Part shown: piece by piece, positions 18,524 to 63,644 of the stretch
How positions within the stretch are numbered: position 1 is the first letter of the stretch
Layout: every line of letters begins with the position of its first letter
DNA from: Malus domestica
Taxonomy: Eukaryota; Streptophyta; Magnoliopsida; Rosales; Rosaceae
Length of the DNA stretch: 64,000 bases
Reading direction: 5' to 3'
NCBI RefSeq assembly: GCF_042453785.1
Contig: NC_091677.1
Span: 7,411,501-7,475,500, forward strand
The notes under the pieces: model-generated
Databases searched by the model: none
Seen by the model: only the letters and a program-made list of their open reading frames with translations
Told to the model about the DNA's origin: nothing
Program-made: the position numbers and the translations under genes

Positions 18524-21500
18524 TTAACATATCGATATACACTAGCAAGTGTATCCGCGCGTTGCTGCGGTGTTTGAAAACATAATTGAATATGCAGAAG
18601 TCTCAAAAAATATATGTGCCAAAGAGTGGTGTTTATATACATATATTACATCCATGTCCATGTGTTAAGGAAGTGCTATTTACATTCATATATTACATGA
18701 CAAAAAATTGGAAATATGGGTGTGCCATTCTTAAGGATTGTTTTTCAAAAGTTATGGCTCTACCCCCAGACATTGTTTTATGCGTACAATTTTACAAAGT
18801 TAAACAATCCAGTTTTGTTTCACTAAATACACCCAAATTTGTAACTTCGTTAATGATGTCTCCTTCGTTTTCTACGACAACGTAGAGGTAAAAATTAAGA
18901 GAAGGAAATTAAAAACAGAATTGGATCACTTATGAATTGAATCACACTAAGTTGCATATGAATGAAAATCTAAAGATTAATGAAAATTTGTCATAATCTA
19001 ACTCTACAAAATTTCAATATGCCAGATTTCATTTGTAGGCACCAAATCAAATTCACAATTTTAAGTTGGTTTTTCATTTTCTCTATTGGTTTTCACTATG
19101 CCAGATTTCTAAATTTTACTTTAGACAGGATTAATATGCACGTCTTTACCGGTATATAGTTCCGCTAAATTGATTTTTACTCAATGTTTCACAGTATTAA
19201 TGTAAATAGGGGAAAACATAACAAACATCCTTAATCGCAAACAGAGCATAACCGAATGTCATGTATGTCACAATGCAGAATTCGTCCAACTAAATTGTGT
19301 TTCTAGTTGATTATTTATCAAAACTAAATAAAAATGTCAAGCATATGAAGATAAAACACACACCTGGGATATCAGTCTCACAAAATCGCAGCATAAGGAA
19401 GCAGATGGAAGTACTCAATGACCGTTGTAACTGCCCAGCTGTTGAAACTCTTTTGTACCAAAGGACCCTGCAGCAAAGTCCAATTGTTACACAGGCAGGA
19501 CAACTTCGAAAAAAGTATAGTAAAGATAGAAAACTAAGAAAAATTCCATGATATACCAGAGCATAAGGAAGATTCAACCACCAAGGATCAATATCATTCT
19601 TTGATCAATTGCCACTGACTTTGTTAGCCACTGACTTTGTTAGCCACTGATTCCTTTTCAGCTTCTTGGAATAATACTTACTTTCTGGTGCAAGGACAAA
19701 TGCCGACTTATTTTAAACTCCAACACCAACCATTCTGCATCATTGTTGAAAGAAAATGTATTATATGTTGATCAAATACTACTATGTAGTAGTGTAATTT
19801 CATATTAAAAGCTTTTTGTCACCTATAATTTGTTAAGCTTTTGTTTAGATTCAGTTGGCAAAAGCTTTACTGTATCACACACAAAATTTTGAAGAAAGCA
19901 TCAGAAAACAAACAGATTTTAAGCAGTTAAATGCACATCCAGCCAGGCAGCTACAAAGAAACCAATTCAAGGCTTAAACCTAGCATATGACTACATTGAA
20001 ATGACAAAGAAAATCCATATTAACAAACTGGTAGAAGCTTGTTTCTCACTACTAATATAGAAAATCTTACTAATGGCCAGGCCGAAACGAATAATAACAA
20101 CAACAACAACAACAAAGCATTTTCCCGCTAAGTGGGGTCGGCTATATGAATCCTAGAACGCCATTGCGCTCGGTTTTGTATCATGTCCTCCGTTAGATCC
20201 AAGTACTCTAAGTCTTTTCTTAGGGTCTCTTCCAAAGTTTTCCTACGTCTTCCTCTACCCCTTCGGCCCTGAACCTCTATCCCGTAGTCACATCTTCGAA
20301 CCGGAGCATCAGTAGGCCTTCTTTGTACATGTCCAAACTCATTTTGTGTACGTGTTGATGCTTCACCGCCCAACATTTTGTGCCATACAGCATCGCCGGC
20401 CTTATTGCCGTCCTATAAAATTTTCCCTTGAGCTTTAGTGTCCTACGACAGTCACACAACACGCCGGATGCACTCTTCCACTTCATCCATCCAGCTTGTA
20501 TTCTATGGTTGAGATCTCCATCTAATTCTCCGTTCTTTTGCAAGAAAGATCCTAGGTAGCAAAAACGGTCACTCTTTGGTATTTCCTGATCTCCGATCCT
20601 CACCCCTAACTCATTTTGGCCTCCATTTGCAATGAACTTGCACTCCATATATTATGTCTTTAATCGGCTTAGGTGAAGACCTTTAGATTCCAACACTTAT
20701 CTCCAAAGGTTAAGCGTCGCATTTACCCCTCCTTAGTTTCATCTATCAACATTATATCGTGTGCGAAAAGCATACACCAAGGAATATCATCTTGAGTATG
20801 TCCTGTTAACTCATCCATTACCAACGCAAAAAGGTAATAACTTAAGGATTGTTGATGCACAAAATCAGTGAGGACTTTGGTACAACAGAAAGTATTAAGT
20901 TTGTGATCTTCGCTAGATTGCTCTGGTCATTAGTGTGGATAAGTATGTAAATGGATGGAGACAGGAAAGCAAACACAAGATATACATGGTTCACCAAGAT
21001 TGGCTACATCCACGGAGTAGAGGAGTTCTCATTAATTGTGAAGGGTTTACGCAAGTACATAGGTTCAAGCTCTCCTTTAGTGAGTACAAGTGAATGATTT
21101 AGTACAAATGACATAGGTTCAAGCTCTCGTCTTCACTTGCCTTATCTGTCTCATAGGTAGATGTGGTATCTTCTCTGGAAGTACGCTTCCTCCATCTAGG
21201 GGTGGTATCTTTAACTGGTGGAAATGCACAAGGTAATGTATCAATTTCACTTGAAGCTTACTTGTAGTTTCAAGCTTGGTCAAGCGCGATACAAACCATG
21301 TAGTAGGAGTCCCCCAAGTCGCCGAGCTAGGGGATCTGCTGAAAGAGGTGACAGACAAGGTAAGCAATCAAAGCTCCAAGCAATCAGTCCCAGATCAGAA
21401 GTTTGATTTCGAGTTCCGGCTGATTGTTCTCATTCTCCCTATCTTGCAGGCAACATGAAGGATAAAGAAAAGAAAAGGAGAATAGATGATATGAGAAGTA

Positions 21501-24500
21501 ACTTTCCACATGCTTATTCTTGAACTGGGCTAGAGGATTTTCTGGTTTCCTCCAGAGTATAAAGCCGACTGAAGAATTTGAGGGTCAAAACAAGTCCATC
21601 AAATCTAGAGTACGTTCGACCCTGCTGATATGGGATACTTTTGCTGTTGACAAAGTAGTGGATGTATCGGCACGTGTTCTGTTACGCTTGTCTCCACATG
21701 CTTCCTTGTATCCTTTACACTTTCCCTATCTGTTCCTCAGGCAGATGTGGTATCTTCTCTGGAAGCATAAGATTTGAATATGAGTACTCGAGAGCAATGC
21801 CAGGTAAGTAATCAGGTAAGGGGTTCCAGGCAGTCAGTTCCTGACTGGAAGCTTGATTCCAAGTGCTGACTGATTGCTCTCTTTCTCCTTGTCTTGCAGG
21901 TAAGAACAAGGCCAAAGGAAAAGACAGGGAAAAAGCATGATATGGGATACTCTTGCTTTTAACCCTGATGATATGAGATATTCTTACTCTGGTGTAGCTT
22001 GTTTGTAGAGGTATTATCGGGAGGAAAGAAAGCTGAGTATTTCAAGAGGCTTCGTTGGGGGTGCCCTCTCAGATATGAGGAAGAGTTGAGCATTTTTACA
22101 GGTCTGCCTGTCCGTTGAGGATGAAGGTCGACATATATAGGAGTTTCCCTAACAACAACTAGTAATGTTATTCCTTTACCCTGCTTGGTCATAGCACGGT
22201 AGTGGGAGCTGCCAGCTTCACGTGTGTCTAAGCACTTTGAAAAAGTGGTCTGTGGTATCTGGAAAACTGATGTTGCGTGTGAAGATTACAAACAAGCTTT
22301 ATCCAATGAGATATGGCTCTCGAAGTTGAGAAAGCGGTGCCTCTTTGGTTTTCGTACAAGCAATCTTGTCGGGGATCTGGCTCTCGAGATTCAGAGAACG
22401 GTGCCTCTTCGATTTTTGAGAGAGCAACCTGCTGGGAGTCTGGCTCTCGAGATTTGGAGAGCGGTGTCTCTTCGATTTTTAAGAAAGTAATCATGTTGGG
22501 AGTCTGGCTCTCGAGATTCGGAGGACGGTGCCTCTTCGATTTTGGAGCAAGCAATCTTGTTGGGAGGGTTTTCTCGAATGTAAGTAAAGGTTGGGCATGT
22601 TTGCTAGTCTACCTTGCCACAGAGCACAGAGGTTGACACACAGGGACTTTCCAATTATCCAGCAGCGATGTTGTTCCTTTACCTTTGTGGGTAATAATAT
22701 GGTAGCTAGACCTTCAAAATTTATGTGTCTAAACTTTGTTAGTGCTGTTTTTTTGCTATTCTTTTACTCTTCTTGGTCATAGCGATGTAGTGGGAGCTGC
22801 AAGCTTCACGTGTCTAAACTTTGTCAGAAATCTTTGGCAAAGTTATCTGTGGTACCCATGAGCTGATGGTGCGTATGGAAAGTGGATGATTGAACAGTAA
22901 GATTCACGTGCTTTCTACTTCACCAGAAATCTTCAACATAATGCCCGTAATTTCAGCAAAGCTGAGTGTGCATGGGACATGTGCTGACAAGGCTGAAACA
23001 AGCAGGTGCCTCTTCGATTTCTGAGATCGGCCCTCGTGGTCTCTGAGCAGCCCAGCTTTTGAGAAAGCAAGCGCCTTTTCGATTTCTGAGATCGGCCTTT
23101 GTGGTCTTTGAGCAACCTAGCTTTTGAGAAAGCAAATGCCTCTTCGATTTCTGAGATCGGTCCTCGTGGTCTCTGAGCAGCCCAGCTTTTGAGAAAGCAA
23201 ACGCCTCTTCGATTTCTGAGCAGGCGCCTTTTCGATTTCTGAAGCTCTGTCGAGTGCAGATTTTTATAGAGGATGGCATTAAGTTCCAAAGCACACTTGA
23301 ATCTTCACCAGTAGACGCTCCCTTCTTGCACTTCTAAGATCTTGATTTATCTGACCTCTTCTCTCTTCAACACCTTTGAAAATGTCTGGCCCCTCCGACC
23401 GTCGTTTTGACTTGAACCTCGTTGAAGAGGCAGCCACACCTTCTCTAAACAACATATGGCGCCCATCCTTCTTATCCTCTACTGGTCCTCTTACCGTTGG
23501 GGATTCCGTGATGAAAAATGATATGACTGCTGCGGTGGTGGCCAGGAACATTCTCACTCCCAAAGATAATAGACTACTTTCCAAACGGTCTGATGAGTTG
23601 GCTGTTAAGGATTATCTGGCTCTAAGTGTTCAGTGTGCAGGTTCTGTGTCTAATATGGCCCAGCGCCTATTTGCTCGAACCCGCCAAGTTGAATCATTGG
23701 CGGCTGAAGTGATGAGTCTCAAACAGGAGATTAGAGGGCTCAAGCATGAGAATAAACAGTTGCACCGGCTCGCACATAACTATGCTACAAACATGAAGAG
23801 GAAGCTTGACCAGATGAAGGAATCTGATGGTCAGGTTTTACTTGATCATCAGCGGTTTGTGGGTATGTTCCAAAGGCATTTATTGCCTTCGTCTTCTGGG
23901 CTGTACCGCGTAATGAAGCTCCAAATGATCAACCTTCGATGCCTCCTCCTTCTAAGGTTCTGTCCAGTACTGAGGCTCCGAATGATCCCCCTCCGGTGCC
24001 TTCTCTTTCTGGGGCTCTACCGACTGCTGAGACTTCTCCTAAGCAACCTTTATGAAGACTCCTTCTTGTTTGTTTATTTTGACTCATGTATATGTACATA
24101 TTTATAACTTATCGGAGATATCAATAAATAAGCTTTGCTTCATTTCAACGTATTGTGTTAAAAATACACCAAAGCCTTCTTCACTGAGTAGGGTCGGCTA
24201 TATGAATCTTAGAACGTCATTGTGCTTGGTTCTGTGTCATGTCCTCCGTTAGATCAAAATACTCTAAGTCTTTTCTTAGAGTCTCTTCCAAAGTTTTCCT
24301 AGGTCTTCCTCTACCCCTCCGGCTCTGAACCTCTGTCCCGTAGTCGCATCTTCTAACCGGAGCGTCAGTAGGCCTTCTTTGCACATGTCCAAACCACCGT
24401 AACCGATTTTCTCTCAATTTTCCTACAATTTCGGCTACTCCTACTTTACCTCGGATATCCTCATTCCTAATCTTATCATTTCTCGTGTGCCTACACATCC

Positions 24501-36241: not shown

Positions 36242-36370
36242 GGTTTTCGGTTGGAGCGCTGATTGAGGAGAGGAAGACCCAGTTGAAGCGAATTGCAGCA
36301 TGAGCATCCATAGCCCCGGGGAAGGGGACAGTTAGGGCTTTGGGACTGGGTGCAAACGGTTGGGATTTCC

Positions 36371-42300: not shown

Positions 42301-45300
42301 TGGGAAGATGATACATTTGCAGGGTTCTCTTCATCCTCCAAGTGTAGAAAGAAGATCAATAAAGTAGCACCTGAAAGGAAGTACTCGAATAGGAGTAATG
42401 GCACTGTGAATGGTAGTTTGGATTATGGAGAGTATGCATCTGATCGAGAAATCAGAAGGCGTTTATCCAGATTGAATAAAAAATCTATGGATTCAGAAAG
42501 TGAAACCTCTGATGATATGGACAAGTCTTCTGAATATAGCAAGAGCAATAGTGATAGTACTTCTTCAGATACAGAAAGTGACTCCGAAGTGAGGTCACAA
42601 AGTCAAACTGGGCAGTCAAGAGCAGATGGAAGCTATACACCTGATGAGGGTTTTGATTCTATGACTGATGATCGGGAGTGGGGTGCTCGCATGACAAAAT
42701 CAAGCTTGGTTCCTCCTGTTACGAGGAAATATGAAGTTATTGAGGAATATGTTATTGTATCCAATGAGGAGGATGTGAAACGGAAGATGCAGGTATCTTT
42801 ACCAGATGATTATGTTGAGAAACTTAATTCTCAGAAGAATGGAATTGAGGAGTCGGATATGGAGCTTCCTGAAGTAAAGGATTACAAGCCAAGGAAAATG
42901 CTTGGAGATGAAGTTATAGAGCAAGAAGTTTATGGAATTGATCCTTATAGCCACAATCTTTTACTTGACTCCATGCCAGAGGAGTTCGACTGGCCTCTTG
43001 CGGAGAAGCATATGTTTATCGAAGATGTGCTCCTTCGCACATTGAATAAGCAAGTCAGGCGGTACACTGGGAGTGGAAATACTCCCATGATGGTTCCCTT
43101 GCATCCTGTGGTTGAAGAAATCCTAAACGGTGCTGAGGAGGATGGTGATGTGCGAACTGTTAGGATGTGTCAGGCTATTTTGAAGGCCATAGAGAGCCGA
43201 CATGATGATAAGTATGTGGCATATAGAAAGGTGAACTTTTTGCCCCACGCCCTATTGACATGTTACTACCTGGATTTATGTCAAGCCATTAGGAGGATGA
43301 CTATTCAATCTTGTGTAATTGTTAATTTGATATGATGATCAGGGGCTTGGTGTCGTTTGCAACAAAGAAGGCGGCTTTGGAGAAGAAGATTTTGTTGTGG
43401 AATTTTTGGGGGAGGTATGGCTCCATTTTGTTTGTGGAGTTGTTTTCTCAGTCATTTAATCATCCCATATTTTATATGATGCTGGCTTATCTTATACCGT
43501 TGTGCAATTTTTTATCTTAAACGTCATGTAAAAGTAACTGTTTTTTGATCTTGTGATTGGCTAATATCTACACTTAATGTAAAATAGGTTTATCCTGTTT
43601 GGAAATGGTTCGAGAAGCAAGACGGGATTCGATCTTTGCAGAAGAATAATAAAGATCCAGCTCCAGAGTTTTACAACATTTATCTTGAAAGACCCAAGGT
43701 GCTTTTCGCTTGCACAAGTTCACACATAGTTATATGCATGCTTTATGGATTAGCATCTGATCATTCATTGTTATTTGGCAGGGTGATGCCGATGGGTATG
43801 ATCTAGTCGTTGTGGATGCCATGCATAAGGCAAACTATGCAAGTAGAATTTGTCACTCATGCCGACCTAATTGCGAAGCAAAGTAAGTTCTGTTGTTTTA
43901 GTTATGTTAGGCAGGACTTTCAATTCAACTTATCAGTGTACATAACAGAGTCACCTTGCTAGTTATAAATTCACATATTTTTCATTTAAGCTATCATATC
44001 TCTGTAAAGATTGTGCTTCATATAGTTGTTTTTTTTTTTTTGGTGGTTTGTTGCTAATGGTGTGCTACTGTTACTTTGTTGCTAATGGTGTACTATTGTT
44101 ACCTTTGTGTCTTGGTTTGTAATTATGATTTGAGGAGCATTTAATGTTTGGTTGTCAGAACATGCCTTTCCAGATCTTTATTGCTGGAATTTGAATGGCT
44201 GTATCCGCACTTGATAAACAATAATTCTTTTTTGCTTAGCTCTGGAGACCAATATATGAGAAGTTGGGATAAAATTTTGATGTTTATAATCAGGATATGG
44301 GTGTGGCTTCATTCTGTGTGTTGAAGGCTTATATGTTGATGACAAGAAGGCTTTAACTTATATTGGACAGAAGTACCTGTAATAATCTAGTGTTGCTTTG
44401 TAATTGCAAAATTTACTTGAATTTTTCCTGCTAGTTCTATAACATATAGTGTTTGTTGAATACAGAGTTACTGCTGTAGATGGTCGTTACCAAATTGGAA
44501 TCTACACTGTACAAAAAATTCAATATGGTGAGGAGGTGACATTCGATTACAATTCCGTTACAGAGGTGACTCTTTTTCCTATTGGCCCTGTGTATACTAA
44601 ATTACAATTTACATGACGACACATGTAAACAGTTGTGCTCATCTGATTTGTGACAGAGTAAGGAAGAATACGAAGCATCAGTTTGTTTGTGTGGCAGCCA
44701 AGTTTGCCGGGGAAGCTACTTAAATTTGACAGGCGAAGGTGCTTTTCAAAAGGTTAGAGAAAAATAATGGATGCACTTAATTCTTAGAGGCTCAGATTCC
44801 TCTTGAGGGGAACTAAGTTATTTCTTTTTCAACCTTGCAATCTCGGTGCCCAAAGACAGGAAGTCCTCCTATGGGTATTCTTCTACTTTATTTTTAAAGT
44901 CATTTTTGTTTTATTAACTGGATTATTGTCCATTGATCAGGTGCTGAAAGAGTGGCATGGAGCTCTTGATCGTCATCAGTTAATGCTGGAGGCTTGTGAG
45001 TTAAATTCAGTATCTGAGGAGGACTATCTTGAGTTGGGAAGGGCTGGTTTAGGCAGTTGCTTGCTGGGTGGGTTGCCAGATTGGGTGATTGCATATTCAG
45101 CTCGCTTGGTATGTTGTTTTTCTGCTGCGTTAGTGTTTCCTTTTTAGTAATTATTGAAATCAACTATCATTTATTTTCATTCCCTTTCATTTTGGTCGAA
45201 GGTGAGGTTTATAAATTTTGAAAGAACAAAGCTTCCTGAGGAGATTTTAAAGCACAATTTGGAAGAAAAGAGGAAGTACTTTTCAGATATTTTCCTTGAG

Positions 45301-46662
45301 GTTGAGAAAAGTGATGCTGAGGTTCAGGTAAATTTTTTTGACTAATCTATATGTGTGTGTTTAGTATCATGTGATTCATGTCTTTTGTGGTTAATCCTGG
45401 CTTACCATTTCTTTTTGCATGATAGGCTGAGGGCGTGTACAACCAAAGGCTTCAGAATTTGGCTGTAACTCTTGACAAGGTGAATTTCTCTGCTATAAAT
45501 AAGTGGTCGTTTTTTTATATACTATTGCACTGTATAAAGATATGTTCAATGATATCTACAGGTGAGGTATGTTATGAAATGCGCTTTTGGCAACCCCAAG
45601 GATGCTCCACCTCCGCTGGAAAGGTTAAGTCCTGAAGAGGCTGTTTCCTTTCTATGGAAGGGAGAAGGATCACTTGTACAGGAGCTTCTTCAGAGCATGG
45701 CTCCTCATGTGGAGGAAAACTTGCTAAATGATCTACGGATGAAGATCCTTGCTCGTGATCCATCAGGTTCGGATGACATATGGAAAGAACTTAAGAGATC
45801 TTTATTATGGTGAGTAACATGCACTTGAGTTAATTTTCTTATGCTAGGTTTTGACTCTGTAAATGATTCCAACTTTATGGGATTCTTTTTGTTTTCGAAG
45901 GTTGAGAGATGAAGTCCGGAATCTTCCTTGTACATACAAGTCTAGAAACGATGCTGCTGCTGACTTGATCCATATTTATGCTTACACACGGTGTTTTATT
46001 AGAATACGGGTATGTCTTTCTAATGAGAACCTCTAAAAAGTTTTCCAATTGATTTGTAATTCTGCTATTTGAATCTGAAACGTGCTTCATTTTACTCTCT
46101 TCAGGAATACAAAACTGTAACTTCGCCACCAGTATTCATTAGTCCACTTGACCTAGGCCCCAAGTACACTGAGACGCTGGGATCAGGTTTTCAGGAGTAT
46201 TGCAAGATGTATGGGGAGAATTATTGTTTAGGGCAGCTGATTTTTTGGTATAGCCAGACTAGTGCAGAGCCGGATTGTAGCCTGGCAAGAGCAAGTAGGG
46301 GTTGCTTGTCATTACCAGACTTCAGTTCCTTCTATGCCAAGGTTCAGAAACCTTCACGACAGCGTGTTTATGGCCCAAGAACAGTAAAGTTTATGCTAGC
46401 GAGGATGGTGAGTTGCGGTTTTTCATATATTTATGCCTTTAGGTTCTTTTTATGGCGTTGCTCATATATTCCAATGCTTTTTCAGGAGAAGCAGCCGCAG
46501 AGACCTTGGCCTAAGGATCGAATATGGTCGTTCAGTAACTCTCCAAAAGTTATCGCCAGTCCGATGCTAGACGCTGTTGTGAATAAATCTCATTTGGACA
46601 GGGAGATGGTGCATTGGTTAAAGCACAGACCCGCGATATTTCAGGCTATGTGGGATCGATGA
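36371..46662 (+). CDS. ATXR3: Histone H3K4 methyltransferase, ATXR3/SDG2 type
   Basis: Nineteen coding exons with consistent GT-AG junctions and frame: 36371-38798, 39294-39350, 39523-40695, 40816-41189, 41275-41832, 41998-42098, 42180-43230, 43343-43414, 43588-43698, 43782-43882, 44466-44565, 44657-44752, 44941-45108, 45202-45327, 45426-45479, 45562-45809, 45901-46009, 46105-46407, 46486-46662. Product about 2,468 residues (Arabidopsis ATXR3 is ~2,335). Order: acidic/basic low-complexity N-terminus with IEKGE repeats (~100-200), a run of RERSPYG-type heptads (~413-503), GYF-like domain 1 (WFYLDYYGVERGPS, ~663), GYF-like domain 2 (WYYLDGAGHEQGPSSFSE, ~1068), SET domain (~1910-2060: RICHSCRPNCEAK, GEEVTFDYNS) and post-SET cysteines (CLCGSQVCRG). 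The family is the main H3K4 trimethylase in Arabidopsis, needed for gametophyte and sporophyte growth. ATG chosen because MGDGGVTCMPLQ matches the family start. All catalytic motifs are intact. Confidence 0.96.
37607..37879 (+). repeat. 21-bp coding tandem repeat (RERSPYG heptads) in ATXR3-like exon 1
   Basis: Thirteen in-frame 21-bp units encoding variants of R-E-(R/K)-S-P-(Y/H)-G. The last few units (RERSPYG three times in a row) are almost identical at the DNA level, pointing to recent expansion. The peptide resembles RS domains, which bind RNA or splicing factors and are phosphorylated. Confidence 0.95.
38829..39169. mobile_element. MITE-like foldback element in intron 1 of the ATXR3-like gene
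   Basis: Left end GGATTTTTAGCCAAGATGG and the reverse complement of the right end, GGTCTTTTAGCCAAAATGA, match; similarity extends over ~100 bp ('ctaagatttgaaatcgatag' against 'gaagatttgaaatcaatata'). Both sides are T-rich so the target duplication cannot be defined. No coding capacity. Confidence 0.65.
41841..41891 (+). mobile_element. 51-bp RTE LINE 3'-end fragment in intron 5 of the ATXR3-like gene
   Basis: 'tcatatagccgaccccactt' followed by 'agtgagaaaaggctttg' and (TTG)n is the 3' end of the same LINE family found at 20.1 and 24.2 kb, here in plus orientation. It is a severely 5'-truncated insertion. It starts about 8 bp after the exon 5 donor. Confidence 0.85.
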
Positions 46663-54889: not shown

Positions 54890-54980
54890 TGACACACCCC
54901 GACCTAAATCAGGGCATGCTGGCCGTTACGTAAGAGTGACGTAACCAAGTGCACAATGCGGAAGCAAAATTGATATAAAT
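54890..54980 (-). mobile_element. End of a Gypsy-type LTR, interrupted by the complex at 54,981
   Basis: TGACACACCCCGACC is a typical plant Gypsy LTR terminus. The sequence resumes as LTR-like DNA after the inserted complex (63,645 onward), and the two flanks share TAAA(T/G), a near-match to a 5-bp duplication. Confidence 0.5.
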
Positions 54981-55391
54981 TGTTGATGCACAAAACTGGA
55001 GGTCTTGGAACAACATAAATCCGACCGTGAATTTGCAAGAAAGTAAATGACACAAGATGTATCGTGGTTTACCCCAATGTTTGGGCTACGTCCACACTGA
55101 TATTGATTGTATTTCTCTGTATGAATGTATGGATTACAAGCGTGAGGGGGAGTCCCCCAGAGAAAGAGAGGGTTTGAGAGAGTTTCTCTGTGAGGATGAG
55201 AGCTTTGAATATGAGAGCCTCTGTTTGGGGATGTGAGGCTTAAGGATTGTGAGGGTGAGGAGTCCCTTTTATAGACTAAGGGCTCTTCACTTATTACATA
55301 TTTGCCCCTTCATTTATTACATAATTATATTTGAGTCCCCAGAGTATTTATATGAGGTCTAAATACAGAGGCCCTAAGTATGGTACAAACA
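54981..55391 (-). mobile_element. LTR L1 of the TGTTGATGCACAAA family
   Basis: 411 bp, TGTTGATGCACAAAACTGG to GGTACAAACA. Followed by 'gtaatcccctaag', which on the minus strand reads as the purine tract before a 3' LTR. Very similar, in reverse orientation, to 63,287-63,644. Confidence 0.8.
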
Positions 55392-55637
55392 GTAATCCCC
55401 TAAGTTTTCAGTCAAAAGAATCTTTTGGCTGGATACTTGAAATTCAGTCCATGTGTAGGCCGAAGTAACTAGATGTCGTCTAGAACTAATACTCGATATG
55501 AGGCGATGCTCAATCTGAAATGATGCTCAACTAGAAGTAGCACATGTTGCGAGGCTGCTCGGTTTGTGGCTTATGTTGCCTTAGTTGGCTCGGCTTGTGG
55601 CGTTGAAGGTGAGGGAGTCTCTTTTATAGAATAAGGG

Positions 55638-56006
55638 TGTTGATGCACAAAACTGGATGTCTTGGGACAACGTAAATCCGACCATGAATCTGCAGAAATG
55701 TAAATAACACAAGATGTATCGTGGTTCACCCCAAGGTTCGGGCTACGTCCACACTGATTGTATTATATTTCTCTGTGGAAGAGGGAGAGAGAGCTTAGAG
55801 CTTAGGGGATGTGATGAGGCTTTGAGAGGGGGTCTCTGAGAGTGAGAGTGAGGCCTCCCCTAATTGTGAGGGTGAGGGGTCCTTTTATAGAATAAGGACT
55901 CCTCACTTATTACATATTTGCCCATTCCTTTATCCCATAATTACATTTAAGTCCCCTGAGTATTTGTACGAGATCTAAATACGAGGCCCTAAATATGGTA
56001 TAAACA
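55638..56006 (-). mobile_element. 3' LTR of the young element
   Basis: 369 bp, TG...CA. Differs from the other LTR near 55,684 (a/g), in the 'ggcctcccct' stretch and in 'tgcccattcc'. Confidence 0.9.
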
Positions 56007-56445
56007 GTAGTCCCCCAAGTCTTCAGTCAAGAGAGTCTTTTGGCTGGAGACTTGAAATTCAGTCCATGTGTGGGCCGAAGTAACTAGATGTCGTCTAGAA
56101 CTAATGCTTGATATGAGGCGGTGCCCAATCTGAAATGATGCTCAACTAGAAGTAGCACATGCTGCGAGGCCGCTTTGCTTGTAGCTTGTGTTGCCTTGGT
56201 TGGCTCGGCTTGTGGCGCTTGAAGGTGAGGGAGTCCCTTTTGTAGAATAAGGGCTTGCTCATTAATACATAAATAATGGGCTAGGTTCCCCAAGTATTTT
56301 TCATGAGGCCCAATTGAGGCCCAATATATGGTACATAATGTAGTCCCCCAAGTCTTCGGTCAATAGAGTCTGTTGGCTGGAGACTTCAAATTGAATCCAT
56401 GTATGGGCCGAAGTGGCGGTTGTTCGGGGGCGGTATTTGTATACC

Positions 56446-56860
56446 CTGCACTGAAGCTTTGTAAGTGAAGCTTTGCAAGTGAAGCTTTGAAGCTAGAGCT
56501 CTGTAAATGAAGCATTTAAAGCTAGAGCTTTTGTAAATGAAGCTTTTGAATCTAGAGCTCTGTAAATGAAGTCTTGGAAACTAGAGCTCTGTAAATGAAG
56601 TCTTTGAAGCTAGAGCTCTTGTGAATGAAGCTTTTGAAGCTAGAGCTCTGTAAATGAAGTCTTTGAAGCTGATTGACATGAGTGATGCTCATGAATGTTT
56701 ATGTTGATTGACATGAGTGATGCTCATGGATGTTAACATGAGTGATGCTCATGAATGTTAACATGAGTGATGCTCATGAATGTTTATGTATGATTGATAT
56801 GAGGGATGCTCATGAATGTTTATATATGAATGACATGAGTAATGCTCATGTATGATTTGG
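56446..56860. repeat. Tandem arrays in the young element
   Basis: Two arrays: 'gaagctagagctctgtaaat' type units of ~30-35 bp (56,446-56,668), then 'gacatgagtgatgctcatgaatg' type units of ~28-40 bp (56,672-56,860). The same two arrays in the same order occur in the outer element at 59,715-60,085. Confidence 0.85.
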
Positions 56861-56951
56861 AGTACTAGGCGTACTTTTGATGACCTGGTTGGTGCTATTT
56901 CAGGCCTATGAGCCTTTGCCCTCCACAACATGTCAGCCCATTTGTTTTGGG

Positions 56952-56952
<1 letters not shown>

Positions 56953-56989
<37 letters not shown>

Positions 56990-56998
56990 ACCCTCTGA
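56953..56998. repeat. Uninterrupted poly-T run of 46 bases
   Basis: On the element's own (minus) strand it is poly-A. The corresponding site in the outer element (about 60,445-60,470) has only a short interrupted T-rich stretch. Confidence 0.9.
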
Positions 56999-57559
56999 TG
57001 GGGTTTATATATATTACCCTCTGATGGGGTCTATACAGATGTCTCCGAAAGATAATAAAAATAAATTACATCATTCATAAATATTGTTGTAGAAGGTGGG
57101 TATGGCAGATGGTTGGATAATGGGATAGTATCTGCACAATTGAAAGTTGGGTAGTGGAATGGCAGATGGCTGCAGAAGCTTTTTCTTTTACTTTTTCTTT
57201 TCCTTTCTGCATGATCCATGAGTCTCCCGCAATTATCCCTGGTCTTCCGCAATTATATCTGTCCACCCATGTTTTATGGCCTTTGGAGACCATCTGAGTT
57301 TAAGTTTTTAATTGCCATTGCTTTCATTGCTTTTCTCTAGAATGACAATTGCTAGGATAGACACCACCCATTTGCCTTTGTTTATCTCTCCACTCCTTCT
57401 CTGTCCACCCATGTTGCTTTGTAAGGTATCTTTGCTTGTAAACCCACTTGCTTTTCTTGGACAGCCTGGTCGTGCCCATCCATTCTCGCTCCTCATTTTT
57501 CTTTTCTGTAAAGGAAAAGAGACTTTGTGAAACAAAAGCAAAAGAAAAGAGAGAACTTT

Positions 57560-57760
57560 TCTGGTAACTGCTGTTGCTTTTGGCGCTGCAGCTGATGGCG
57601 CGGAGGAAGATGACAGGCTAGGAACAAGAAGAGGGTCGTCCTCTTCTAGGGCACCAAAGGCGGCGCTTGTGGCTTCAGCGACGGCCGGAGAATCGAGCGG
57701 TGAGTCATCTTCTTGCTCCTCGAATGCCGCTTCGAATGGGTCCTTGGATTGCTGCTTCAT
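57560..57760 (-). pseudogene. Captured gene fragment, probably TAF11 N-terminus
   Basis: Starts MKQQSKDPFEAAFEEQEDDS and goes on for ~65 acidic, Ser/Ala-rich residues before turning into unrelated sequence. The opening matches, from memory, the N-terminus of plant TFIID subunit TAF11; the histone-fold part is absent. The ~35 codons just upstream (TPTAAATAPSTFAWLAICEK) are also open and coding-like, either leader sequence or another fragment. Confidence 0.5.
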
Positions 57761-57869
57761 TGTCGATCTCTCTGGAATTTGGGAACTTTCGTCTGACGAG
57801 ACATTCTTCTCACAGATAGCGAGCCAAGCAAAGGTGGATGGCGCTGTCGCAGCAGCAGTTGGCGTTGTT

Positions 57870-58921
57870 CTTGTTCTTCAGCTGAGTACTGACATCCCCC
57901 AAATATAGATCACCCTTCCTGATTCCGATCGAACTGATTGAAACTCCGGTGGAAGTGTAAGTGGTGACAGTGAACTTATGGTTGCTCTGGTAATCGTTGT
58001 AAAGAAGATCTCTGGCTTTCTTGCCGATATCGGGGTAGAGTCAAAGATCGCGATGGACCCATCACCTGATTTTTCGACCTCTAATGACAGCTTCATCTTC
58101 CTCGCCATCAAATTCAGAAACTCGGAGAAATCGATTGTGCCATTCTGATCAGCATCAACTTCACTGATAATGTCCTGCAATTCAGCCTCAGTGGGATTCT
58201 GTCCCAAAGATCTCATCACAGTCCCCAACTCTTTGGTAGTGACGCAACCATCGCCATCTTTGTCAAAGAGGCAAAAAGCTTCCTTGAACCCGGCGATCTG
58301 CTCCTCTGTTAGTTGCTCCGACTTTTGGTCTCTGCTCTGAAGATTTTGGCCAAACGTGGATTGCAACTTGATCTCGTTCTCTCTTCTCATGTGCTGATTG
58401 AATGGGTGTGATTGTAACTGACAAATAATGGTAGAGAGAACCCTACAGAAGTTGGTGTGGCGGTTCAGGGCTTCCTCTGTGGAGATGAGCTTATTTGATC
58501 GCACCAATTCGTTTTTCACCGCCTTGACGCAGAGTCTGCAAATCCAACGGCCCTGGTAGCAGTCCCGGACGCAGGAGATATATGTTGGGGTGTAATCCTC
58601 TGTGAACCCGTAGGAGTGGCATTTTACGCACTGGACTTCGACTGGTGGAGGAGCTGGGGATGGTTTAGATGAGGTTTGGTGGTGGGAGTCTGTGCCTCTC
58701 TGTAATTGGGATTTTGGAAGAAACTCTGTTTTCTGTAAATTTTGGGTTTTTGCAGATTCACGGCGGAGGTGAAAAATTGAGAGAGAACCGACATAACTTT
58801 TCGTGTCGATTCCCACAGACGGCGCCAAATGTTGATGCACAAAACTGGATGTCTTGGGACAACGTAAATCCGACCGTGAATCTGCAGAAATGTAAATAAC
58901 ACAAGATGTATCGTGGTTCAC
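57870..58921 (-). pseudogene. Chimeric ORF: DUF1677 fragment + calmodulin N-lobe + VDAC fragment
   Basis: A 347-codon open frame begins inside the 5' LTR (58,921). Residues ~95-160 are a DUF1677-type cysteine motif ([37 protein letters not shown]). Residues ~202-277 are the calmodulin N-lobe with two complete EF-hand loops ([24 protein letters not shown]), ending at LMARKMK; the second lobe is missing. From about 58,051 the DNA is the start of a mitochondrial outer-membrane porin ([33 protein letters not shown]), but in another frame, so the chimera reads it as nonsense. The pieces come from three unrelated gene families and have no business together except through capture. The calmodulin and DUF1677 parts remain in one frame, so a fusion product is possible. 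Confidence 0.85.
58812..58829 (-). promoter_or_regulatory. Primer-binding site of the young element
   Basis: TTTGGCGCCGTCTGTGGG on the minus strand, immediately after the 5' LTR. TGGCGCCG matches the 3' end of plant tRNA-Asp; the next bases match less well. Confidence 0.75.
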
Positions 58922-59198
58922 CCCAAGGTTCGGGCTACGTCCACACTGATTGTATTATATTTCTCTGTGGAAGAGGGAGAGAGAGCTTAGAGCTTAGGGG
59001 ATGTGATGAGGCTTTGAGAGGGGGTCTCTGAGAGTGAGAGTGAGGCCTCTCCTAATTGTGAGGGTGAGGGGTCCTTTTATAGAATAAGGACTCCTCACTT
59101 ATTACATATTTGCCCCTTCCTTTATCCCATAATTACATTTAAGTCCCCTGAGTATTTGTACGAGATCTAAATACGAGGCCCTAAATATGGTATAAACA
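58830..59198 (-). mobile_element. 5' LTR of the young element
   Basis: 369 bp. On the minus strand it starts TGTTTATACCATATTTAGGG and ends GTGCATCAACA. It would hold the promoter that drives the gene-fragment chimera. Confidence 0.9.
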
Positions 59199-59203
59199 AA
59201 GGG

Positions 59204-59560
59204 CTTGCTCTTAAACACATGAATGATGGGCTAGAGTTGATGCTCTCTAATGATGGTGAGGGAGTCTTTTTGATAGAATAAGGGCTCGCTCTTCAATACA
59301 TAAGTGATGGGATAGAGTTGAGGCTCGTGGTGAGGTGGTTGCTCAGCAAGTGGCAATGCTCTCTAATGATGGTGAGGGAGTCCCTTTTATAGAATAAGGG
59401 CTCACTCCTAAATACATAAGTGATGAGTTAGGAGTGATGCTCGCGGCGAGGCGGTTGCTTAGCAGGCGGCGATGCTCTCTAATGATGGTGAGGGAGTCCC
59501 TTTTATAGAATAAAGGCTCGCTCCTCAATACATGAATAATGGGTTAAGTCCCTCAAGTAT
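59204..59560. repeat. ~117-bp tandem repeat, left array
   Basis: 'tctctaatgatggtgaggga' recurs at about 59,243, 59,360 and 59,476, each followed by 'cttttatagaataagggctc' and '...aatacataagtgatg'. The same unit is found at 62,943, 63,059 and 63,176, and fragments of it at 55,610 and 62,880. Confidence 0.85.
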
Positions 59561-59714
59561 TTTTCATGAGGCCCAGTTGCGGAAGCCCAATATATGGTAC
59601 ATAGTGTAGTCCCCCAAGTCTTCAGTCAATAGAGCCTGTTAGCTGGAGACTTCAAATTGAATCCATGTATGGGCCGAAATGGTGGTTGTTCGGAGGCGGT
59701 ATTTGTATACCCTG

Positions 59715-60375
59715 CACTGAAGCTTTGTAGGTGAAGCTTTGCAAGTGAAGCTTTGAAGCTAGGGCTTTTGTAAATGAAGCTTTTGAAGCTGGAGCTCTGT
59801 AAATGAAGCTTTCGAAGCTGATTGACATGAGTGATGCTTATGAATGTTTTATGTTGATTGACATGAGTAATGTTCATGGATGTTGACATGAGTGATGCTC
59901 ATGGATGTTGACATGAGTGATGCTCATGAATGTTGACATGAATGATGGTCATGAATGTTTATGTATGATTGACATGAGTGATGCTCATGAACATTTATGT
60001 ATGATTGACATGAGTGATGCTCATGATTGACATGAGTGATGCTCATGAACATTTATGTATGATTGACATGAGTGATGCTCATGTATAATTTTGGAGTACT
60101 GGACGTACTTTTGATCACCTAGTTGGTGATAATAACAGCAGGCTGCCGAATAGTTTTTGGAGTACTGAACGTACTTTTGATCACCTGGTTAGTGATAATA
60201 GCGATAGACTGCCGAATAATTTTGGAGTACTGGACGTATTTTTGATCACCTGGTTGGTGATAATAGCGGCAAGCTGCCAAATAATTTTTTGTAATACTGG
60301 ACATACTTTTGATCACCTGCAGGCTTCCAAATAATGTTTTGTATTACTGGACGTACTTTTGATCATCTGGTTGGT
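59715..60375. repeat. Tandem arrays in the outer element
   Basis: 'gtgaagctttg/gaagctagagctc' units (59,715-59,815), 'gacatgagtgatgctcatg' units (59,820-60,085), then about four ~60-bp units containing 'gtactggacgtacttttgat' and 'cacctggttggtgataatag' (60,085-60,375). Confidence 0.85.
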
Positions 60376-60939
60376 GATAATAGAGGGCCTGGCTCTTTTG
60401 GGCATATGGGCCTTCGCCCTCCACATAACATTCCAGCCCATTATTTTGGGCTTGCCTTTTATTTTTATTTTTTATGATTACTTTCTGATGGAGTTATACA
60501 TATGTCTCCGAAAGATAAGAAAAATAAATCACATCATTTAAAAATAAATCCGACCCTCTGCTCAATGGGTCCCACCCATAATTCCCTTTTTTGCATGTTA
60601 TCACCACCGCAATTATGTCTGCTTCTTTTTATCTTATTTTGCTTTCTGCTTTTGTTTCCCACTCAATTTCCAGACATCCTTTTGCTTTTTCTTTTCTCTT
60701 TCCACTGCGCCTCTGTCTCTATCTCTGTCTCTGTATCTGCGCTGCTGTCTATTTGTAAAAAGCATCTTTGGAGGTCATCACTCATGAGCTCCGTAACCAC
60801 TTCTTTGGAGGTCATCAACCCACCTGTGCTTGCATGCATCTGATCCAAACCCCTTTCGTCCTCAATGGTGAGTAGATTACGAGAAAGAAAGGTAGATTAC
60901 AAGAAATGGGTTTATCCCCACTGGTAAATTGAATAAAAC

Positions 60940-61370
60940 CGGGAATAAATAAGAAGAGACGGACAAGAAGGGTTAGGAATGCAGCCCAGATACCATATTC
61001 ACCTTTAATCCATGAGATGACAGCAGCCGGCGCTTGTAGAAGAAATAAGGGAACAAGAAATGATTTCTGAACAGCAGTCCCTTTTGCAAGCAATAGAACC
61101 GTAGTAGAAATGATGGAGATAAATTGGAAGGTGTTGATACAGAGAGGTGCAGCGTAAGTGTAACACATCGCACTCGATCCCCTCTTCTTACCCTTCATTA
61201 CCACGAACTCCTTCTTTATACCAATCGAAACTCTGAAAGGGTTGCGGTGGAGTGAGCTCATACTAAGACAAGAGAGCTTGGCCAGCCTCGGTTGAAAGGC
61301 AGAGAATTTAGAGGTGGTAGTGCTGCTACTGCCGACGCTGTAGAGAGAGATAGTCGGTGGTGAAGTGGAG
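60940..61370 (-). pseudogene. Captured COR413 inner-membrane protein fragment
   Basis: Minus-strand frame with FISIISTTVLLLAKGTAVQK, SFLVPLFLLQAPAAVISWIK and GEYGIWAAFLTLLVRLF, characteristic of the chloroplast inner-membrane cold-regulated protein COR413im, preceded by a basic, Ser-rich transit-peptide-like stretch (FRVSIGIKKEFVVMKGKKRG). Homology stops after FIPG, at an exon boundary, and runs into intron-like sequence, so the last membrane segments are missing. This suggests the fragment includes part of an unspliced intron. Confidence 0.85.
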
Positions 61371-61399
61371 GAGAGTGAGATTAACGGACTTGCAAGAAG

Positions 61400-61690
61400 G
61401 AGAAGCAGCAGCATGCTCAGAGGCCTGAGTGTTTTTCTTCTCCAACTGAGCTGCTAGATTTGGCGACAGAGGAACAGAAGAAACCTCATTCTTGGCTAAT
61501 GGAGAACTAAAGCCTGCTGCTTTACCCACATCAACCTCAGATCCATTAGTCATGGTAAAAGCCCATTTCTCATAACACCCATCAATGGCATTAGAGAATC
61601 CCTTGTTTGCCCCTGACACAGGGTTCTTTGGAAGGTTTGGAGAAAACCCAGTTGGCTTGTTCTTATTCCTCTGGTTCTTCTGAACGATGT
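61400..61690 (-). pseudogene. Captured fragment of an unrecognised gene
   Basis: Open frame with NKNKPTGFSPNLPKNPVSGA, NAIDGCYEKWAFTMTNGSEV and PLSPNLAAQLEKKNTQASEH. Coding-like composition, continuous with the COR413im fragment on one side and the spermidine-synthase fragment on the other. I do not recognise the source family. Confidence 0.5.
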
Positions 61691-61697
61691 CTGGAGT

Positions 61698-61881
61698 CTA
61701 ACCACATTGGGCTAATCTCAGAGAACCAGTCGGGAATAACAGTAGAGACATAATCTGACTCTTTGCCACCGTCAGTCTCCATGGACACTGCTGAAGCAGC
61801 AGCTCCCGCGTCATTTTCTTTTTCCTCCCTGGCCCTTTTCACGGGTAAATCAGCAGACCTCACCACAGACTCGTTCGCCAT
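61698..61881 (-). pseudogene. Captured spermidine synthase N-terminal fragment
   Basis: Starts MANESVVRSADLPVKRAREE and ends at STVIPDWFSEISPMW, the conserved N-terminal segment of plant spermidine synthases just before the catalytic domain. Homology stops there, so there is no active site. It is the first fragment downstream of the outer element's primer-binding site and leader, in sense orientation. Confidence 0.85.
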
Positions 61882-62275
61882 AGCCAAACGCACCAAAAGA
61901 ATGAACTAACGAAACATAAGGAGGCGATATGAATGAGCGAGCCGCCAGCGAGCGAGTTTCCAAACGGTTTAAGGACACTCTGAGACAAAGAGTGTGGTAG
62001 AGAGAGAAATCAGAGTTACAGAGAGTAAGGTAGAGAGAGAAAGAACAGAGAAGAGAGGGGGGTTGAAGTTGGAGGTTTAAAGTGTGTACGACAGTTTAGC
62101 TGGTGGTTCTTGGAAGAGAAGGAAGCAGGGCGGAGGTATTGATTCTGCTTCTCAAAGAAAATGGTGGGACGTTTTTCGGTGTATTTTGGGTTTTTTTACA
62201 GATTTACAGTGGAGGTAAAAAAATGAAAGAAAACCAACATAGCTTTGCATCTCGATTCTCACAAACGGCGCCAAA

Positions 62276-62656
62276 TGTTGATGCACAAACTGGAGGGGTA
62301 TTGGAACAATGTAAACCAGATCGTGAATCTACAAGAAAGTAAAGAACACATGATGTATCATGGTTCACCTTAATGTTTGGGCTACATCCATACTGATGTT
62401 GATATTGTTTCACTCTGAATGATGAATATACAAGAAGGCTAGAGGCAGCGTGCTCTCTTGCCTATTTTCTGTGTGCTCTCTTCCCATAGCCTAAGATTTT
62501 GGCCTCTCCCAATGAGGAGAGTAAAGAGTCATTTTATAAAATAAGGGCTCATCTCTTATTACATATTTGCCCATTCATTTATTACATAATTACATTTGAG
62601 TCCCCCGAGTATTTATATGAGGTCTAAATACAGAGGCCCTAAGTATGGTACAAACA
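62276..62656 (-). mobile_element. LTR L2 of the TGTTGATGCACAAA family
   Basis: 381 bp, TGTTGATGCACAAACTGGAG to GGTACAAACA, preceded by 'ctcacaaacggcgccaaa' (primer-binding site on the minus strand) and followed by 'gtagtaccccaag'. Its middle ('ggctagaggcagcgtgctct') differs strongly from L1. Confidence 0.8.
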
Positions 62657-63286
62657 GTAGTACCCCAAGTTTTCAGTCAAGAGAGTCTTTTGGCTGGAGA
62701 CTTGAAATTCAGTCCATGTGTGGGTCGAAGTAACTAGATGTCGTTTAGAACTGATACTTGATATGAGGCGGTGCTCAATCTGAAATGATGCTCAACTAGA
62801 AGTAGCACATGTTGCGAGGTTGCTCGGTTTGTGGCTTATGTTTCTTTGGTTGGCTCGGCTTATGGCGTTGAAGGTGAGGGAGTCCTTTTTATAGAATAAG
62901 GGCTCGCTCCTCAATACATGAATGATAAGCTAGATTTGATGCTCTCTAATAATGGTGAGGGAGTCCTTTTTATAGAATAAGGGTTCGCTCCTCAATACAT
63001 AAGTGATGGGCTAGAGTTGAGGCTCGCGGTGAGACGGTTTCTCAGCAGGCGGCGATGCTCTCTAATGATGGTGAGGGAGTTCCTTTTATAGAATAAGGGC
63101 TCGCTCTACAATACATAAGTGATGGGTTAGGAGTGATGCTCGCGGCGAGGCGGTTGCTCAGCAGGCAGCGATGCTATCTAATGATGGTGAGGGAGTCCCT
63201 TTTATAGAATAAGGGCTCGCTCCTTAATACATGAATAATGGGTTAAGTCCCCTGAGTATTTTTCATGAGGCTCAGTTGCGGAAGCG
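62657..63286 (-). mobile_element. Internal sequence of a second element copy, to the right of L2
   Basis: Starts with the purine-tract side sequence found right of L1 and of the young element's 3' LTR, then ~117-bp tandem repeats. It is cut off at 'cagttgcggaagc', which in the complete copy at 59,578 continues 'ccaatatatgg', and is joined there to the inverted LTR. Confidence 0.7.
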
Positions 63287-63644
63287 AGACTCAAATGTAA
63301 TTATGTAATAAATGAAGGGGCAAATATGTAATAAGTGAGGAGCCCTTAGTCTATAAAAGGGACTCCTCACCTTCATAATCCTCAAGCCTCACATCCCTAA
63401 ACAGAGGCTCTCATATTCAGAGCTTTCATCCTTACAGAAAAGCTCTCTCGAACCCTCTTTTTCTCTGGGGGACTCCCTCTCACGCTTGTAATCTATACAT
63501 TCATACAGAGAAATACAATCAACATCAGTGTGGACGTAGCCCAAACATTGGGGTGAACCACGATACATCTTGTGTCATTTACTTTCTTGCAGATTCACAG
63601 TCGGATTTACGTTGTTCCAAGACCTCCGGTTTTGTGCTTCAACA
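63287..63644 (+). mobile_element. Inverted, truncated LTR (L3) matching L1
   Basis: Its reverse complement starts TGTTGAAGCACAAAACCGG and follows L1 closely for ~355 bp to 'acatttgagtc'; the last ~55 bp of the LTR are missing. With L1 it forms inverted ends around 54,981-63,644. Confidence 0.8.

Follow-up and report, generated by a model that had tools for sequence, protein, structure and literature searches.

How do long terminal repeat (LTR) retrotransposons come to carry pieces of several unrelated host genes? The question is raised by a 64,000-nucleotide stretch of the apple (Malus domestica) genome, hereafter the window (NC_091677.1, positions 7,411,501 to 7,475,500), in which positions 54,981 to 63,644 had been described, in an earlier note made from the letters alone, as part of a family of non-autonomous LTR elements that collects and shuffles host gene fragments. 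Two such elements lie there, E1 and, nested within it, E2. We searched one genome (651 Mb, 19 contigs, here given C numbers; the window is C17:7411501-7475500) for their parents and relatives. In all likelihood, serial template switching during reverse transcription, with proteins supplied in trans, fills a slot in the members of this non-autonomous family.

E2 is complete, with a near-identical LTR pair (366 of 369 sites, 99.2%, three differences), a perfect 5-bp target site duplication (TSD; AAGGG at 55633-55637 and 59199-59203), a primer-binding site (PBS) and a polypurine tract (PPT, GACTTGGGGGACTAC) adjoining the 3' LTR, as is characteristic of LTR retrotransposons. No gag or pol domain was found in the open stretches of E1 and E2 that were scanned, as the earlier note had held, and E2 is accordingly not an autonomous element. 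The sequence on both sides of E2 runs gap-free along a related stretch at 62865-62945, and a rate of 1.3e-8 per site per year, as applied in PMC5659011 (available in part), converts the LTR distance into an age of ~0.32 million years; E2 is a recent integration. Its LTR ends, TG..CA, place it outside the AACA/TGTT subfamilies of Rosaceae, whose ends are TG..TT or AA..CA in the partly available definition. At 3561 bp, with an interior of ~2.8 kb holding coding pieces, it is not a terminal-repeat retrotransposon in miniature (TRIM), for which the standard, also from a partly available text, is very small size and an interior that is short and non-coding. Nor is it a large retrotransposon derivative (LARD), which has a large conserved non-coding interior, usually >4 kb, the ~2.8-kb interior of E2 holding cargo unconserved among members. 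Spliced pieces of unrelated host genes inside it place it with the gene-transducing LTR elements of the Bs1 kind.

Both elements are read on the minus strand. The 14-mer TGTTGATGCACAAA, which had been taken for the start of the LTR, is the complement of the LTR end (TTTGTGCATCAACA); it was recovered at 20850, 54981, 55638, 58830 and 62276, and inverted with one mismatch at 63631-63644, as were the PPT-like sites (exact at 21308, 56009, 56342 and 59608) and the PBS core TGGCGCCGT in two elements.

The cargo of E2 consists of pieces of DUF1677, calmodulin (CaM), VDAC and TAF11 genes, and that of E1 of pieces of COR413IM, Aux/IAA-like and spermidine synthase (SPDS) genes together with a 5' untranslated region (5'UTR) from C8 (Table 1). 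The six host pieces named previously were confirmed by database matches or by parent loci, the list having been incomplete in that it lacked the C8 5'UTR, the Aux/IAA-like piece, a 39-nt piece and the second occurrence of TAF11. E-values were 2e-22 for DUF1677, 3e-17 for EF-hand, 3e-11 for Porin_3, 1e-19 for WCOR413 and 6e-8 for spermidine synthase, and the calmodulin piece covers residues 2-79. The piece that we take to be TAF11 gave no useful database match, its parent locus being found on C10, and the Aux/IAA-like name is likewise our assumption, made from the motif LKETELRLGLPGS. PDB searches with the VDAC and TAF11 pieces returned no useful match, and none of seven further open reading frames (ORFs), taken from the two strands, reached the cut-off of a Pfam family. 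Parents are paired on different contigs, as would fit an old duplication.

The CaM, VDAC and COR413IM pieces match their parents exon by exon with the introns gone, so their source was spliced RNA. Gaps of ~410 nt (CaM, one intron) and of 109 and 651 nt (VDAC, two introns) are missing from E2, and gaps of 78, 326, 148 and 114 nt (four introns) from the COR413IM piece of E1; the lost CaM intron agrees with the intron that plant calmodulin genes have within the Gly26 codon (PMC3751459, available in part). Capture from chromosomal DNA, as by Pack-MULEs or Helitrons, or through break repair inside the element, would be compatible with the Aux/IAA-like, DUF1677 and SPDS pieces, each of which matches a single uninterrupted stretch, and with those 3' edges that lie at or near exon ends, but not with the seven introns gone from the other three pieces, nor with the intron-sized gaps gone from two further members (L038 and L037). 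No kept intron was noticed in the match lists, in which no systematic search for one was made. For CaM, VDAC and COR413IM, DNA-level capture was rejected because the introns are missing, and as a general explanation it is extremely unlikely.

Spliced pieces are equally expected of processed pseudogenes made by long interspersed nuclear elements (LINEs) and inserted successively into ordinary LTR elements, and LINE-like copies do occur in the window. However, at the seven pieces tested, whose edges are approximate, no shared word beyond chance was found that could be a TSD of their own (smallest P 0.061, TAF11), and no A-run >5 lay within 40 nt past the 3' edge. The slot, moreover, is constant in position, and modules are common to several elements. 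Later retro-insertion, which would have refuted the earlier proposal, was rejected on these grounds, and an origin through LINEs deserves hardly any credence.

E1 and E2 resemble each other in frame, their leader and LTR matching at 75-76% and the pieces of 3' backbone at 66-95%, while their cargo regions (1645 and 1626 bp) are without convincing similarity (longest match 43 nt, E 0.003). Genome-wide, TGTTGATGCACAAA is present 9184 times in exact form and its reversed control 4 times, so the abundance of the 14-mer is not due to chance, and the LTR end with the PBS occurs exactly 2264 times (control 0); a scan of viral contigs for the LTR-PBS junction gave 0 matches. The first 30 LTR-PBS loci, taken without regard to cargo, were sorted by LTR match into 20 resembling the element at 20850 (the sister type) and 10 of E2 type, including L025, which was typed from 61 nt of LTR and 48 nt of leader. 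Eight more E2-type members, the leader matches that come first on C2, brought the unselected sample to 18, from two contigs. The proportion of 10 in 30, applied to the 2264 occurrences, gives about 390-1200 E2-type copies (95% interval), and the exact leader pattern has 469 matches in the genome.

Directly after the PBS, 17 of the 20 sister-type loci (the reference L009 counted) share at least 1450 nt with L009, the exceptions L010, L013 and L022 sharing 773, 185 and 307 nt. No pair among the ten E2-type loci shares 300 nt after the PBS; three (L015, L030 and L038) have a longer leader of ~170 nt in common. Within the 18 E2-type members a single pair has common cargo (L035/L093, 95.7% over 1362 nt), other common stretches being 80-160 nt long. 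The E1/E2 family has a fixed frame and cargo that differs between copies. Sister-type L022 and L025, which has an E2-type LTR end and leader, share a tandem-repeat interior like that of the element at 20850 (summed hits 1695 nt), which points to an exchange between the two families; L025 is the only one of the ten E2-type loci to have sequence in common with a sister-type locus. On C3 (5604910-5713671), seven leader matches follow one another in steps of ~15.2-15.5 kb, one step being double; each unit of what is probably a segmental tandem array would thus hold a single E2-type element.

When ORFs from the first 1.4-1.8 kb of every member were scanned against Pfam (72+77 in sense and 58+58 in antisense, with limits on E of 0.01 and 0.001), a host domain was detected in 10 of the 18 unselected members, nine with a named domain (L016, L032, L035, L037, L038, L088, L090, L091 and L092) and L093 through the cargo that it has in common with L035; the repeated, family-wide habit proposed earlier is supported. 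In sense orientation were OTCace_N, DUF599, GINT1_N, LOR, Na_sulph_symp, LRR, DUF740, RRM_1, DUF819 and FKBP_C, with GN3L_Grn1 and Pkinase below the cut-off. The marginal UPF0715 (antisense) and SR-25 (sense) were left out of the count, and the RRM_1 and LRRNT_2 matches are not tied to particular members. Sense families outnumber antisense ones 10:2 (p=0.039), or 14:2 with E1 and E2 included (p=0.004). No gag or pol domain was found in these ORFs. Two of the 18 members, L037 and L038, were traced further by sequence matches elsewhere in the genome. On C15 and C8 the OTC-domain piece of L038 is found as two parts with a gap of intron size between them (about 600 nt on C15); at least three more stretches of this element have matches elsewhere, and C16 holds a copy of it at 98%. 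L037 has at least five such stretches, two of them split by intron-sized gaps (one on C17/C9, the GINT1 piece on C7/C2).

Cargo also moves between copies. Seventeen element-like loci, picked among matches to E1 and E2 cargo, were compared with the modules of the two elements; all 17 have an LTR match and the leader, and 15 the 3' backbone within the stretch examined (not L063 and L064). L040-L042 carry E1 cargo at 84-94% per module, their 5' LTR being nearest to the inner LTR of E1 (86-92% over the matched parts), and L043 carries part of the E1 cargo. L068 carries E2 cargo at 99-100% from window position 58409 through TAF11, and beyond it the tail matches at 96% and the backbone at 81-93%; its 5' LTR and leader are different (91%), and another first module, of 342 nt, replaces DUF1677. 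Parts of the calmodulin module occur in L069, L074 and L078, only DUF1677 in L071, only part of TAF11 in L080, different parts of the Aux/IAA-like piece in L050, L052, L055 and L059, and part of the C8 5'UTR in L063 and L064. The 61-nt module at 58379-58439 precedes calmodulin in several elements and is the only E2 cargo of L086, where calmodulin is absent. The shuffling is real, modules recurring elsewhere in new combinations.

Cargo present in several copies (L040-L042, L068 and L035/L093) would be expected if it were kept by selection as domesticated chimeric genes and not taken up passively, as would the open stretches of 315 codons in E2, longer than in 500 of 500 shuffles, and of 212 codons in E1, longer than in 499 of 500. 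Pieces that were coding from the outset, however, explain such frames, on which ground the long frame of E2 was rejected as a product of selection. Adjacent pieces, furthermore, lie in different frames (VDAC against TAF11, SPDS against COR413IM), and the frame spanning DUF1677 and CaM has no Met before one just upstream of the calmodulin part. Domestication is thus very unlikely.

The junctions between pieces bear on how the cargo was assembled. VDAC and TAF11 have a 12-mer, AGAACAAGAACA, in common at their switch point, the C8 5'UTR and SPDS a 9-mer, TCAGAGTGT, and the 39-nt and Aux/IAA-like pieces 5 nt. The two TAF11 pieces stand in reversed order, piece b following piece a in the parent and preceding it in E2, as would result if the mRNA was copied to its 5' end and the polymerase then jumped back onto the same mRNA. 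Most identified pieces of E1 and E2 are 5'-proximal (6e-6 by a uniform-placement estimate for four pieces with assumed starts), the Aux/IAA-like piece starting about 50 codons into its gene. The VDAC (58042), DUF1677 (58697) and COR413IM (61380) pieces begin within ~4-6 codons past the parental start codon. The hypothesis that every piece is an mRNA 5' end was rejected, the unselected sample containing several C-terminal pieces (LOR, 131-186 of 187; DUF599, 150-204 of 211; OSCP, 112-172 of 172).

Splicing offers another route, in which a read-through RNA from a host promoter would splice host 5' exons into the element before reverse transcription. The TAF11 and SPDS pieces, which probably begin at transcription starts, to judge from the TATA-like motifs upstream, would fit such a 5' transduction, as would the prevalence of sense pieces and the 3' edge of CaM at a likely exon end, with those of the Aux/IAA-like and SPDS pieces near one. 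Each cargo, however, combines loci of several contigs, the order of TAF11 is reversed, the VDAC edge coincides with the 12-nt microhomology rather than with an exon end, and antisense and C-terminal pieces occur. We regard 5' transduction as unlikely, and favour serial template switching.

Such switching would proceed as follows. The frame consists of an LTR, the PBS and a leader of ~90 nt on the 5' side and a repeat-rich backbone of ~1 kb, the PPT and an LTR on the 3' side, with the variable slot between, which would fill with pieces of spliced cellular mRNA. The RNA of the element would be packaged and copied with the gag and reverse transcriptase (RT) proteins of the sister family. During minus-strand synthesis the polymerase would quit the element RNA and copy part of a co-packaged mRNA, would sometimes reach the 5' end of that mRNA and jump anew, at times at short homologies, and would at last return to an element leader. 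The new copy would integrate with a normal 5-bp duplication, and later copy choice between element RNAs would reshuffle the modules. That mRNA uptake by this route is part of replication in most lineages of the E1/E2 family is a broader claim, which we consider probable, with appreciably less assurance.

Several observations weigh against this account. Five of the eight junctions lack parental overlap and contain 6-48 nt of unassigned sequence, the 61-nt module apart. In the parent of TAF11 piece a, TATATAT lies 30 nt above the start of the piece, and in both SPDS parents a TATA-like motif precedes the piece by 34-35 nt, distances that stand without a control. The 3' edge of CaM (58091) lies at an apparent exon end, which random switching would not predict, that of the Aux/IAA-like piece (61388) within about 2 nt of a likely one, and that of SPDS (61702) about 4 nt before one. 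Antisense domains occur (OSCP in L016, Biotin_lipoyl in L035 and, via shared cargo, L093); minus-strand switching alone does not explain them, and plus-strand switching would need to be added. Eight of the 18 unselected members have no assigned domain; Pfam counts miss 5'UTRs and pieces that belong to no Pfam family, and 10 of 18 may thus be low. Finally, the ORFs scanned in the putative donor of the proteins (L009+L087) contain no integrase, its 3' LTR lying beyond the stretch examined, and the role of the sister family as supplier in trans is inferred from the ends that the two groups share.

This putative donor belongs to the same group, by LTR, as the element at 20850, which had been counted as the third of three related elements. 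LTR type, leader and backbone unite E1 and E2; the element at 20850 has only the terminal ~15 nt and a block of ~47 nt in common with the LTR of E2 and is a member of the sister family, with no second LTR and no PBS found. As to the autonomous partner that was to be looked for according to the earlier note, one sister-type element (L009+L087) is a possible helper, being a gag-RT relative in which the LTR end and the primer-binding region are the same. It has gag, RT (RVT_1), RNase H and a downstream antisense ORF, the combination expected of a Gypsy/Retand-related element; the antisense ORF begins like that of the element at 20850. TRP28 was not detected in the pieces of the sister family's antisense ORF that were scanned, and the reading frame of L009+L087 is interrupted after RNase H begins. 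Its LTR end is also that of the E2-type group, and both groups contain TTTGGCGCCGTCTGTGGGAAACGACAC.

E1 is not the one simple element, spanning 54981-63644, that had been proposed. It is a composite older than E2 and contains E2, an inner LTR and an inverted LTR copy, the order from its 3' end being outer LTR, 3' backbone, cargo, PBS, inner LTR, a second, partial 3' region and the inverted LTR. The outer LTR (54981-55337) and the inverted LTR (63288-63644) differ by 21 transitions and 1 transversion without gaps over 357 nt, against 27 transitions, 26 transversions and 16 gaps between the outer and inner LTRs. The outer flanks, TAAAT and TAAAG, match at 4 of 5 bases, as do 2.2% of random local flank draws. 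The inverted terminal LTRs look like sisters with a near target duplication. This LTR pattern suggests that the inversion may have arisen by a fold-back switch onto minus-strand DNA, the product still being able to integrate.

Table 1. Features of E1, E2 and the sister-family element, in window positions.
Feature	Position	Strand	Remarks
E2, complete non-autonomous LTR element, 3561 bp	55638..59198	-	TSD read directly; nested in E1
E2 3' LTR	55638..56006	-	
E2 3' backbone	56007..57083	-	PPT (56007-56021) and tandem repeats; common to E1 and further members
TAF11 piece a	57559..57810	-	Parent C10
TAF11 piece b	57818..57877	-	Directly downstream of piece a in parent
Captured VDAC mRNA piece	57866..58042	-	Three exons joined; parent C13, also C16
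Captured calmodulin mRNA piece	58091..58378	-	Two exons joined; parent C14, also C6
61-nt module	58379..58439	-	Source unassigned; found in further elements too
Captured DUF1677 piece	58446..58697	-	Parent C2, second match C15
E2 leader	58742..58829	-	Family-conserved
E2 PBS core	58819..58827	-	Adjoins 5' LTR
E2 5' LTR, 369 bp	58830..59198	-	
E1 outer (3') LTR	54981..55389	-	
E1 3' backbone	59204..60546	-	Resumes at 55390-55637 beyond the E2 insertion
Captured COR413IM mRNA piece	60884..61380	-	Five exons joined; parent C5, also C10
Captured Aux/IAA-like gene piece	61388..61671	-	C9 and C17
39-nt piece	61655..61693	-	Matches C16:2393627
Captured SPDS piece	61702..61987	-	From probable transcription start; C16 and C13
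Captured 5'UTR of C8 gene	61975..62193	-	Upper edge overlaps leader
E1 PBS core	62265..62273	-	
E1 inner LTR	62276..62650	-	5' LTR of the cargo unit
Partial second copy of E1 3' internal region	62651..63285	-	
Inverted LTR copy closing the E1 composite	63288..63644	+	Flank TAAAG, against TAAAT at 54976-54980
Sister-family fragment, possible helper	20850..24160	-	Right border uncertain
LTR of the 20850 element	about 20850-21301	-	
Antisense ORF of the 20850 element	23355-24107	+	

Elsewhere in the window, LINE-like copies (20109-20849 and 24166-27184) flank the element at 20850, the first stopping exactly at its LTR end and the second containing an RT domain. Host genes recognized by Pfam are NPH3 (3577-4758), GRAS (11075-12409) and an ATXR3/SDG2-type histone methyltransferase (36314-46659).

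If uptake of mRNA is indeed part of the replication of this family, its hundreds of copies would hold many different mosaics of several host genes, an RNA-level counterpart of Pack-MULEs and Helitrons and not an occasional accident, with modules recombining between co-packaged element RNAs. LTR elements are usually seen as occasional gene thieves, and several hundred copies with a constant frame and different spliced cargo are a natural archive of switches between element RNA and cellular mRNA. With it one could test how frequent such switches are, where RT jumps (at mRNA 5' ends, at microhomology or at exon edges), which mRNAs get into virus-like particles and if exon shuffling of this kind gives rise to expressed genes. 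Gene annotation in such a genome may hold many chimeric fragments, and the parent genes could be targets of small RNAs that the elements produce.

LTR elements are already known to take up spliced host pieces; a whole capturing family was not found in the literature searched, by titles and abstracts, with most subscription papers outside its scope. The printed 14-mer TGTTGATGCACAAA did not occur there. The words 'captured' and 'gene fragments' are absent from the main text of a pear LTR survey (PMC4668562) and of a Rosaceae transposable element survey (PMC11197308), and a 2026 review of plant gene capture mentions neither 'Rosaceae' nor 'apple'.

Among known systems, maize Bs1 is reportedly a low-copy LTR element into which exon pieces from several host genes have been transduced. 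The E1/E2 family differs from it in its hundreds of copies and exchangeable modules. Bs1 is mentioned in the available parts of PMC7264820 and PMC4717578. E1 resembles the Triticeae complexes for which Sabot and Schulman proposed template switching, where the outer LTRs are alike and the inner one different (PMC1950507, available in part), in having three LTRs with a similar outer pair, and is unlike them in that one outer LTR is inverted, a word absent from the main text of that paper. The sister gag-RT element resembles Retand in its antisense ORF downstream of RT (PMC11963269, available in part). Genome-wide, 672 captured genes in rice and 1343 in sorghum were tallied over 7,043 and 23,915 LTR elements in the part available of PMC3726574, which likewise places host genes inside LTR elements, but not within one family with a variable slot. 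Closest to E2 in content is the soybean TRIM GmaRetroS15, which, in the accessible part of PMC4717578, has no gag-pol and carries exon-only pieces of three host genes, one of the pieces being a 5'UTR; the gene-carrying soybean TRIMs there have 5-bp TSDs. That survey, in the same part, counts 30 gene-carrying elements of 1.17-1.45 kb, from seven subfamilies out of 289 searched, whereas here 10 of 18 unselected members have host domains, E2 measures 3.56 kb, and the cargo varies from member to member.

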